The position numbers and the translations under genes were made by a program. The notes under the pieces were generated by a model, which searched no databases, was not told where the DNA came from, and saw nothing but the letters and a program-made list of their open reading frames with translations. Below, piece by piece: positions 1 through 2,122 of a stretch of DNA of 48,018 nucleotides (its first letter is position 1; each line of letters opens with the position of its first letter). The stretch covers positions 1 to 48,018 of the forward strand of contig JNEN01001267.1 of NCBI GenBank assembly GCA_000697355.1. Direction: 5' to 3'. Source of the DNA: Syncephalastrum monosporum B8922 (taxonomy: Eukaryota; Mucoromycota; Mucoromycetes; Mucorales; Syncephalastraceae).

Positions 1-49
1 CCCCCCCCCACAGCTGCTTCAGCGCCAACAATAAACGATAGTGGAAATC

Positions 50-76
50 CAGTACTTCTTATTTTGGGACACTTTT
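50..76. repeat. Possible transposon terminal repeat
   Basis: The sequence starts CAGTACTTC and runs into a TTTTGGGACACTTTT block right next to the stop codon of the DDE transposase fragment. CAGT starts and GGGAC-type ends are usual for Tc1/mariner/IS630 termini, so this may be the outer end of the element. I found no matching inverted copy on the far side of the Fanzor gene, so the call rests on position and composition only. Confidence 0.25.
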
Positions 77-566
77 AAAGAGGTAGCTTGTTCAGACAAT
101 CTTCGATTTTTGCAACAGAGTAGCGACAAAATCCTTGAATATCCGCAATGAGCACTTGCCTACATGCGTCTGCAATACGCGACGACAGTGTTTCTTCATC
201 AAGAAGCCTTTCACGCTTAAGCTTGCTCTTGCAAACCATCCAAAATTGTTCGATTGGGTTTAGTTCGGGAGAATACGACGGGAGATACACGCATTTATAA
301 CCACGGTTCTCAATGGTCTTGCGAATATCAGTTGCCATATGTATTGGGGCGTTGTCCATAATGATGTTGCTGCCGTGCATCCGTGGATGACGGTCGAGGA
401 TGTCTAATGTGTGGACAATAAAATTGAAATAATGGCCCGTTACGGTGCCTGATCGTTTCGTGGTCGCTGATCCAGCTGTTTTGCGCTTCTTGGATGGTTG
501 ATACGGTCTGCGCAGCTTAATGTTTATCACACCAAAAGCAGATATAGCACCAAGGATAGTTGTCGT
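75..566 (-). pseudogene. DDE_3 transposase fragment (Tc1/mariner/IS630 type)
   Basis: This is the C-terminal half of a DDE superfamily transposase. The catalytic-core signature is clear: NIIMDNAPIH carries the second aspartate, followed by YLPSYSPELNPIEQFW with the terminal Glu and the NPIE-FW block, then a helical tail. The frame is open for about 164 codons. It reads back past the first in-frame valine through TTILGAISAFG, which is typical sequence upstream of the second Asp, and is then stopped by TAG at 567-569. The first catalytic Asp and the N-terminal helix-turn-helix are missing, so the gene is 5'-truncated and cannot be active. It lies back to back with the Fanzor remnant, probably inside the same element. 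Confidence 0.88.
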
Positions 567-594
567 CTATGCCCTGATAATCTAGTAACCATGA

Positions 595-1858
595 AGTATA
601 TATGGTGCTATAATTATTGAGCTCTCATCACATGCACTGCAGAGCGCGATGGGGTTCGTCTTCGACATCACGACCAAGGCTATTGCCACAGGGGACACAA
701 TCAAGCTTTCCAAGCGCGCCTACCACTGGAAGCTCCGCAAGCCCGTTCCTGGTACGACACTACCCGCCTATACCCCCGGTACATCTTTCAGGACAGACGG
801 GATTCGCCTTCTCCAAACTTTTACTAATTGGGTCAAGAAGCGGGAGGTTCACGGAAAGGAGCACTACCCAGACATCCTCTCGTTCCTGACAACGGACGCA
901 TCGAAATCTGTAAAGACCATTATCGGTATGGATTTCGGCGAAGTCTGCCCAGTAGCCTCTTTCGCCATGCCTGTCTGTCAAACAAGCGAGAAAAAGGGTA
1001 TCCAGATCTACGTTCGCCATCAAGAGATCCATGGCAAGACCAAATGCAATGCTCACTGGTTGGAGGACAGGAAAGACCGCCTAGGCATGCATCAAATCGA
1101 AGCAGAAATTTCAAGGCACGCCAAGGGTACAAACCAGCGGGACATCATGGGGAAATTGCGTTCTCCCAAGAAAATGGGCGAAGGGAACAGATTCGCGGTT
1201 TCTACACGAGTGCCTCTGTTGCACGCAAGTCCTGGACCACGCAGAGGTCTATCCGATCGCAAGTAGACCGCACTTGCAACCTGTTGCTAGGCACTGCGAA
1301 AAGAGTCGGTGAAGCAAACCGGGGCAACACGGGTATACTTGCAGTCCTTTATCAAGTGATCAACGGTGAGACACGCCACATCGCTTTTATGGCACGTGCA
1401 ATGTCCTTATTGTAGCTGGCCTCGACGGACAAGGCGGTAGTATTCCAAGAAAAGGCGCCATGTCACCGATGGACACCAACGTTCTGAGCGCACTGACACG
1501 CCATGCCAAGCAGCACGGATATCCATTGGTACGAACCAATGAATTCTGTACCAGCCAAGTCTGCCCACATTGCCTGCAAGAGGGCAAGCAGGTGTGCACC
1601 GTGTTCCCGCTCAAAAACATCATTCGTGTAAAGATGTGTCTGGAATGCAAATACTACTTCCACCGGGATGGAATGGCTGCACATAACATGGCCTTGGCGG
1701 CGGATGCCCTCCTAAGGACGGGCCAAAGGCCCAATTGCTTTATCCCGCCTTTTCTACGCGTCGACACCGAACATGGAGACAGCTCCCGGTCCCGCAAAAG
1801 GAAGAAATCAGGAGGTGGCGCCACCACATCCCGTTCAGACAGAAGAAGAACAGTATGA
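595..1858 (+). pseudogene. Fanzor (eukaryotic TnpB-like RNA-guided nuclease) pseudogene
   Basis: The remnant covers about 400 residues over three frames. Frame 1 (from about 595) carries the RuvC-I motif IIGMDFGEVCPVASFA, with its Asp codon at 931-933. Frame 3 takes over near 1175-1185 and gives the helical piece FYTSASVARKSWTTQRS. Frame 2 takes over near 1385-1400 and gives NVLIVAGLDGQ (RuvC-II region), a zinc ribbon with CPHC at 1562-1573 and CLEC at 1637-1648, and RuvC-III HRDGMAAHNMAL with its Asp codon at 1667-1669. RuvC split around a C4 ribbon with RD..AA.N is the OrfB/TnpB/Fanzor signature. The N-terminal wedge and recognition region is missing, and there are at least two frameshifts. 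The canonical RuvC-II Glu is not obvious; a GLDG sits there. Fanzors are known to ride in mariner-type elements, which fits the adjacent DDE fragment. Confidence 0.78.
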
Positions 1859-1930
1859 GCCAGTCATCAGACAGCTGGCTCGGGCATTTTGCCCGTATAG
1901 AGTTTCTATAAATATAGACCTCTTTTTTTT
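1857..1930 (+). ncRNA. Candidate omega RNA (Fanzor guide scaffold)
   Basis: Three hairpins stand shoulder to shoulder starting at the Fanzor stop codon. Hairpin 1 pairs 1857-1863 (GAGCCAG) with 1875-1881 (CTGGCTC). Hairpin 2 pairs CGGGCA at 1881-1886 with TGCCCG at 1890-1895 over a 3-nt loop. Hairpin 3 pairs TATAGA at 1896-1901 with TCTATA at 1905-1910 over a 3-nt loop. A run of T follows at about 1921-1930. In TnpB and Fanzor systems the guide scaffold is transcribed from the 3' end of the nuclease gene into the element end, so position and structure fit. The inference is structural only; no consensus from sister copies was available. Confidence 0.4.
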
Positions 1931-2122
1931 TGTCGGATGGGTGCAATGATGATGCCCCCCGCTATGATTGTAATCATGCTTTTTTATATCATTGTATACA
2001 TGTATATATCGAGAATTGTGGGAGACTAAGAAAGAAAAGAAAGGCAGATAGCTGATGCAGAATGAAGAGAGAGAGAAGAAAGAAGGAAATAGATAAAGAA
2101 TGAACGAGATGATGCAAACCAC
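1931..2122. other. Intergenic, 3' region of GMP synthase
   Basis: Purine-rich and AT-rich DNA between the Fanzor element and the GMP synthase stop codon, which lies on the minus strand. I see no gene here. The transposon's right-hand end may lie in this stretch but was not located. Confidence 0.5.

Follow-up and report, generated by a model that had tools for sequence, protein, structure and literature searches.

A dead Fanzor1-type gene, probably split by a later DDE-bearing insertion, and relatives that appear to be FEN1/XPG-Fanzor fusions

The window, that is, the whole stretch of DNA analysed here, is an entire contig of 48,018 bp (C186) from a genome of 27.5 Mb in 198 contigs. Its introns and the Fanzor type agree with a fungal origin. 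Two gene remnants lie side by side at its left end (Table 1). On the minus strand, positions 75-566 matched the DDE_3 profile (PF13358) with 70.8 bits (E = 1.4e-19, cut-off 28.6); the fragment spans profile positions 54-145/146 only, and the N-terminal part is absent. On the plus strand, positions 1370-1858 matched Cas12f1-like_TNB (PF07282) with 41.2 bits (E = 1.9e-10, cut-off 26.3). Pfam hits on opposite strands thus confirmed the original prediction of a DDE_3 fragment adjacent to, and divergent from, a Fanzor/TnpB-like gene. The assignment of that gene also held, as its TNB domain scored above the cut-off and its core could be aligned with relatives. Profile support for the frames at 649-1858 was nevertheless uneven: frame 595-1266 had no Pfam match beyond a chance one below the threshold (E = 0.38), although it aligned to the Fanzor core of relatives, with 41% identity to the copy on contig C179.

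Table 1. Features at the left end of the window (positions in bp; handles beginning with C are contigs of the same genome)
Feature	Position	Strand	Basis
Right arm (outer end) of a putative ~5.6-kb inverted-repeat insertion	1-595		100% to C107:64386-64980
DDE_3 (IS630/Tc1-mariner type) transposase fragment	75-566	minus	Pfam PF13358
Insertion junction, inverted-repeat arm/Fanzor gene	595-596		Breakpoints relative to C107, C162 and C94
3' part of the disrupted Fanzor intron, ending in CAG	596-642	plus	Comparison of C162, C107 and C179
Fanzor1-type RuvC/zinc-ribbon gene	643-1858	plus	TNB profile and alignment
Fanzor core, first part, with RuvC-I Asp (DFG, codon 931)	643-1200 (end approximate)	plus	41% to the C179 core
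72-bp LTR-retrotransposon RT/RNase H fragment in the Fanzor gene	~1327-1398	plus	Without counterpart in C162 and C94
Fanzor core, second part	1399-1858	plus	TNB 41.2 bits, motifs and alignment
Fanzor element, conserved right end with two or three hairpins (candidate guide-RNA scaffold)	1857-1910	plus	Fold and shared end motif

Genome searches returned at least 26 TNB hits and at least 39 hits with the core protein, which merged into at least 40 Fanzor loci; at least 70 DDE_3 hits merged into at least 63 loci. Two of the Fanzor loci were cut by contig ends (C24, C156) and two lay less than 2 kb from one (C173, C176), so their surroundings were visible in part only. Under random placement of the 40 and 63 merged loci listed in 27.5 Mb, 0.20 Fanzor loci would be expected within 1 kb of a DDE_3 locus, and the probability of at least one was 0.18. 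Because chance alone would produce such a neighbour this often, the adjacency by itself is weak evidence.

When window positions 1-2100 were searched against the genome, the matches split cleanly at a junction. Positions 1-595 were 100% identical to C107:64386-64980 on the reverse strand, and the long matches on the Fanzor side began at 597 (C162, 94%) and at 594 (C94, 85% and 80%). Neither C162 nor C94 had a DDE piece in front of its Fanzor match. In C162, both halves of the Fanzor gene were joined, unbroken across the junction, through a predicted intron that begins GTGAGA after ...PPEKK. C107 showed the N-terminal half of a Fanzor gene of the same kind, ending ...PAENK, after which came a splice-like GTTGG and then DDE sequence. 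Comparison of the predicted intron borders gave EEGK/GTAAAG...CAG/SAVSFVLDIG for C179 and CAG/SAMGFVFDIT for the window; here and below, splice sites and introns are predictions from sequence (GT-AG). Identity to C162 was 91.6% over 1210 bp for the C107 flank, which holds the N-terminal half, and 94.4% over 735 bp for the window core, and this similar divergence counts for one split gene. Most likely, C107 carries the first half of the gene and the window the second.

The nesting is the reverse of that originally predicted: a DDE-bearing insertion lies inside the Fanzor gene, and not a Fanzor gene inside a DDE element. We give hardly any credence to the earlier view that the gene is the cargo of an IS630/mariner element and is moved by its DDE transposase. 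The two genes are adjacent in the window, and Fanzor1 with a mariner transposase has been documented in other genomes (PMC3627910). However, the junction falls within the gene, whose other half is on C107, and the DDE tip sits in the Fanzor intron, not beyond the ends of the element. A DDE_3 hit within 10 kb was found at one of the 40 merged Fanzor loci listed, the window locus alone (the C94 locus has one at 10-20 kb), so that sister copies lacked the DDE gene, the outcome that had been named in advance as refuting the prediction, in 39 of 39 cases, several of them near contig ends. The window did not show a DDE gene and a Fanzor gene within one TIR pair flanked by TA duplications, as would mark a mariner/IS630 element, and the junctions inspected revealed neither a shared TIR nor a TA duplication.

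The structure of the insertion was deduced largely from C107 (locus L061, 64386-69336), which continues 4.9 kb past the junction and holds the other arm and the interior. There, 65047-65911 formed a 99% inverted repeat of 69336-68472, position 69336 being the contig end, and 65970-66031 recurred inverted at 68473-68412 (92%). The window starts within sequence that is a ten-G run on C107. By arm symmetry, ~66 bp are missing between the end of C107 and the first base of the window, and the same symmetry is the basis for the putative placement of C107 next to C186. The insertion would then measure ~5.6 kb, with two ~1.6-kb arms and ~2.4 kb of interior. The arms would bear the DDE piece at the outer end together with 5.7 copies of a 108-bp tandem repeat; two interior frames scanned on C107 had no Pfam match. 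The assembly would break within the second arm, and so the first half of the gene would be left on C107 while the second half opens the window.

Since C107 and C186 were assembled as separate contigs, in a genome with many Fanzor copies, they might instead represent two separate copies, struck at the same intron position by copies of the same DDE-bearing sequence. This would require two insertions at the identical base. The gene halves are moreover complementary, and the second arm of C107 leaves the contig end in the right orientation, so that we regard two independent hits as improbable and prefer a single split gene.

No target-site duplication was visible at the 595 junction beyond the arms. 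The arms start with TTCATGG and finish with CCATGAA, and because of this a palindromic CATG target duplication may be present. The arm tip was not found elsewhere in the genome. With no target duplication seen and a tip found nowhere else, the insertion may have arisen either by transposition or by break repair.

The genome contains four near-perfect inverted DDE_3 pairs (C107:64386-69336, C94:46594-52115, C117:97869-101958 and C73:213667-217095). Overall, their arms measured ~0.7-1.6 kb, mostly at 99% identity or above, with spacers of 1.5-4.1 kb; for the C94, C117 and C73 pairs, the arms were 693-1015 bp long and 99.4-99.7% identical. The interiors of the C94 and C73 pairs matched each other at the protein level. 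We considered whether the arms might be TIRs of a common transposon family and rejected this, as the four tips differ and the C117 arm begins inside a longer DDE frame, which leaves no shared TIR. Two of the four pairs (C107, C73) reach a contig end, as might be expected if palindromic or chimeric reads had produced the inverted repeats as an assembly artefact. The 1.5-4.1-kb spacers, however, were not palindromic in self-comparison, and the window connects its arm to the fitting second half of the Fanzor gene; an artefact is thus very improbable.

Catalytic signatures persist in the window copy (D 931, alternative E 1541, D 1667). Its second core part holds the alternative RuvC-II Glu in NEFCTSQVC (codon 1541), a zinc ribbon and the RuvC-III Asp in FHRDG (codon 1667). 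The RuvC-I and zinc-ribbon pieces are in different frames, and this disruption, together with the 72-bp insert, bears out the prediction that the copy is dead. The insert was 92% identical to C67 and to C179:212124, and its source frame on C67 matched RT_RNaseH with E = 5.9e-35. Two GCAA words flank it, a setting reminiscent of the filler DNA that break repair leaves.

The classification as Fanzor was examined against published features. TNB scores were 41.2 bits for the window, 38.3 for C179 and 20.1, below 26.3, for the C94 piece. In Fanzors, a rearranged RuvC-II Glu occurs six residues before the zinc-finger CxxC (PMC10711439, Yoon 2023). This Glu was found in the window (NEFCTSQVC) and in C179 (NEYCTSQIC), and C94 had NGF instead. 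The same source places DPG at RuvC-I 'near exclusively' in Fanzors (PMC10711439), whereas the motif was DFG in the window, C94 and C162, and DCG in C179, C173 and C176. As DPG is described as a strong tendency, we keep the gene as Fanzor-type, with reservation. Searched against the PDB, the core profile had two hits at E up to 0.1, SpuFz1 and PpFz1, each weak (E = 0.09); the Fanzor part of C179, as a single full sequence, had none.

The prediction that intact relatives would exist was borne out as far as better-preserved copies are concerned, with stop-free core frames of 399 aa on C179, C173, C164 and C176, though none was shown intact from end to end. Likewise, the suggestion that sister copies be aligned to find the element ends yielded a fixed right end but no complete left end. 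C173, C24 and C176 were 98.6-99.1% identical to C179 over their shared parts, and all four ended together at GGCTCGGGCAATATGCCCGTATATAGTTTCTATA, after which the flanks diverged. C164 and C156 behaved likewise, and C94 and C38 stopped 11 bp short of that end, at GTATA. In the window, the right end falls at 1910, 212 bp past the 3' end of a GMP synthase gene on the opposite strand. Two pattern searches found the right-end motif at nine sites (the window and eight others), all nine beside a Fanzor core, and the reversed-pattern controls gave 0. Folding of sequence 1790-1915 was more favourable than that of any of 200 shuffled versions (z = -3.8). The hairpins showed no compensatory changes in six sequences, with pairing not above shuffles, and so covariation does not demonstrate a guide-RNA role.

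The left ends varied. C162 starts ~140 bp inside a stretch common to C179 and C164 (98%), and both of these extend left beyond that start. The outer part of their left stretch is shared by C154:614609-615418, where there is no Fanzor gene. C154 was tried as an empty site and rejected, because it ceases to match C179 at a point 5' of the element, and the sequence that follows is unlike the right flank of C179. No TIR was found in the Fanzor copies studied, whose left ends are incomplete; the right flanks are TA-rich, and for the same incomplete ends an 11-12-bp ATAATTNNNN(N) target duplication was not seen. A Helitron partner was also rejected, as the right-end motif occurred at no site without a Fanzor core. 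The Helitron profile PF14214 had seven genome hits; the nearest Fanzor-type hit lies ~7 kb off on C191, and this TNB hit is outside the core list of the present Fanzor subfamily. Nei-Gojobori ratios for the core of recent copies were 0.34 (11 changes) and 0.35 (18), small samples with distant pairs saturated, and give a hint of constraint.

Upstream of the Fanzor region, C179 has a frame starting MGVKNLHYH. When this was spliced at predicted GT-AG sites, 399 aa ran in frame into the Fanzor part, with one frame break further downstream that C173 lacks. A genome search with the 399 aa gave at least 12 merged XPG-like loci among the matches listed. Six of the 40 listed Fanzor loci (C179, C164, C162, C166, C16 and C17) had an XPG-like locus just upstream on the same strand, against 0.05 expected. 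The other 34 had no adjoining XPG-like hit, four of them (C24, C156, C173 and C176) being at or near contig ends; six listed XPG-like loci had no Fanzor alongside. C166 belongs to a distant lineage (45% identity in the XPG-like part, 36% in Fanzor), which argues that the pairing is not just a recent duplication. No XPG-like hit was listed on C107, the other half of the window gene, so the 5' part of the window copy has apparently been lost as well.

Seven acidic residues (D37, D110, E200, D202, D222, D224 and D289) were invariant in all three copies compared, C179, C164 and C166, the first two of which are 97% identical. We take these to be the FEN1-type catalytic positions. The XPG_I profile matched all three with 19.3-22.3 bits (best E = 1.7e-4), below the curated cut-off of 24.9. 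Against the PDB, an XPG-like profile placed EXO1 on top, weakly (E = 0.033), and phmmer with the XPG part alone had a single chance match. The Nei-Gojobori ratios of the XPG part were 0.61 and 0.43, from alignments whose edges run into introns. XPG-like relatives were also sought in viral contigs; 103 pattern matches (alignment A1) were obtained and none was confirmed.

Intron phase and start codons bear on whether the two parts form one gene. In C179, six consecutive predicted introns preserve the frame from XPG into Fanzor. On the Fanzor side, 135 open codons precede the first Met of the frame, with no start upstream, and this stretch is partly conserved in C162, so that an upstream exon is needed. 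In C179, the continuity of the frame across introns and the missing start codon point to one gene, encoding an N-terminal FEN1/XPG-like nuclease joined to Fanzor, and some of the better-preserved relatives appear to be built in this way. The two parts might instead be neighbouring genes of one element: a stop codon is encountered when C179 is read beyond its predicted exon-6 splice site, and C162 has two in-frame Met codons just before the Fanzor-side stretch, within a predicted intron. Set against the frame kept through all six introns and the long Met-less stretch in C179, separate genes seem unlikely, though the possibility is to be taken seriously, and a fused gene remains our preferred reading.

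The family resembles several known systems in part. In the MCi-2 Fanzor1 family of Mucor circinelloides, a ~6-kb 3' part is constant while the 5' regions vary, and the family has neither recognisable TIRs nor a transposase assigned to it (Bao and Jurka 2013, PMC3627910). It also has 11-12-bp target duplications and, in one subfamily, a partial Crypton transposase (PMC3627910). Like MCi-2, the window family has a fixed right end (at nine loci) and non-uniform left ends, with no TIR seen in these incomplete left ends; there, in contrast to MCi-2, no 11-12-bp duplication was found. The mariner-borne Fanzor1 elements PGv-1 and PUl-1, described in the same paper, carry TIRs and TA duplications (PMC3627910). 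The window shares with them a Fanzor1 gene beside an IS630/Tc1-mariner type DDE gene, but its DDE piece belongs to an insertion that struck the Fanzor gene afterwards. The RuvC and zinc-ribbon core is like that of the Spizellomyces punctatus and Parasitella parasitica Fanzor1 proteins (PDB 8gkh, 9cf0), from which the family differs in its weak profile match (E = 0.09) and in DFG/DCG at RuvC-I.

Likeness to the FEN1/EXO1/XPG nucleases consists of an MGIKGL-like N-terminus, an XPG_I-like block, a GND motif and seven acidic residues in the expected order. The domain differs from those enzymes in that its Pfam score stays below the threshold, its two aligned lineages share 45% identity, and it lies in line with Fanzor. 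The words XPG and FEN1 do not occur in PMC3627910. In the structure paper (Cell 2024, PMC11423790), XPG and flap are absent and FEN occurs just within a name. Virus genes are called 'Fanzor flap endonuclease homologs' in a preprint (PMC11071296), with no fusion described in that passage. In the literature searched, which did not include one relevant domain survey, no description of a Fanzor-XPG fusion was found.

We therefore consider it very probable that a dead Fanzor1-type gene was split by a later DDE-bearing inverted-repeat insertion; some of its better-preserved relatives appear to be FEN1/XPG-Fanzor fusions. Window positions 596-1910 would be the 3' half of the gene of a dead Fanzor1-type element. 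After the element arrived, the ~5.6-kb insertion, with ~1.6-kb near-perfect inverted arms, would have struck the intron between the N-terminal domain and the RuvC core, a few bases in from its border. The DDE_3 fragment would belong to the arms of this later insertion and is not known to take part in mobilising the Fanzor element. As in characterised Fanzors, the product of the family may be a nuclease guided by RNA read from the right end, and its FEN1-like part might, speculatively, trim flaps at the cut or during copying.

A further proposal is that a FEN1-like flap nuclease and an RNA-guided Fanzor are combined in one polypeptide, and that the fusion itself drives spread as a transposase-free, RNA-guided selfish element. 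All sites found with the right end were next to Fanzor cores, and the DDE_3 and Helitron profiles revealed no transposase partner, which is why such spread may be envisaged; we nonetheless think it doubtful. An empty or target site would be cut under RNA guidance, and the FEN1-like part would trim the flaps that result from copying into the break.

Fanzor1 in mariner elements is already published (PMC3627910), and a Fanzor-DDE link as originally proposed would therefore not have been new. The FEN1/XPG-Fanzor relatives are the more interesting lead. If made as one protein, they would pair, in nature, a programmable nuclease with one that processes flaps. If true, the fusion would make testable the long-standing question of what TnpB/Fanzor does for its element, and several well-preserved copies in a single genome would make such a test practical.

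Several minor features of the Fanzor copies were also observed. Many copies lie at or close to contig ends (C176, C173, C24, C156, C186, C3, C40, C86 and C46), which reflects either assembly breaks caused by the repeat or a subtelomeric position of the copies. The copy at C162:54191-61077 (L069, L071) is a mosaic, its 5' 3.1 kb being 86% identical to C179 in DNA and its core just 43% in protein, a difference that suggests that element lineages have recombined. C162 lacks a counterpart to window 1455-1840. Further Fanzor lineages (L002, L006, L008, L003 and L007) have other N-terminal regions, several in similar copies, and no XPG-like hit was listed near them. An ~89-bp repeat in the left portion of the Fanzor element (C179:181835-181923) recurs at no fewer than 24 further places, often with an inverted partial second copy 100-200 bp away, in a MITE-like arrangement. 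At C158:206223-206942, two Fanzor core fragments touch in inverted orientation.
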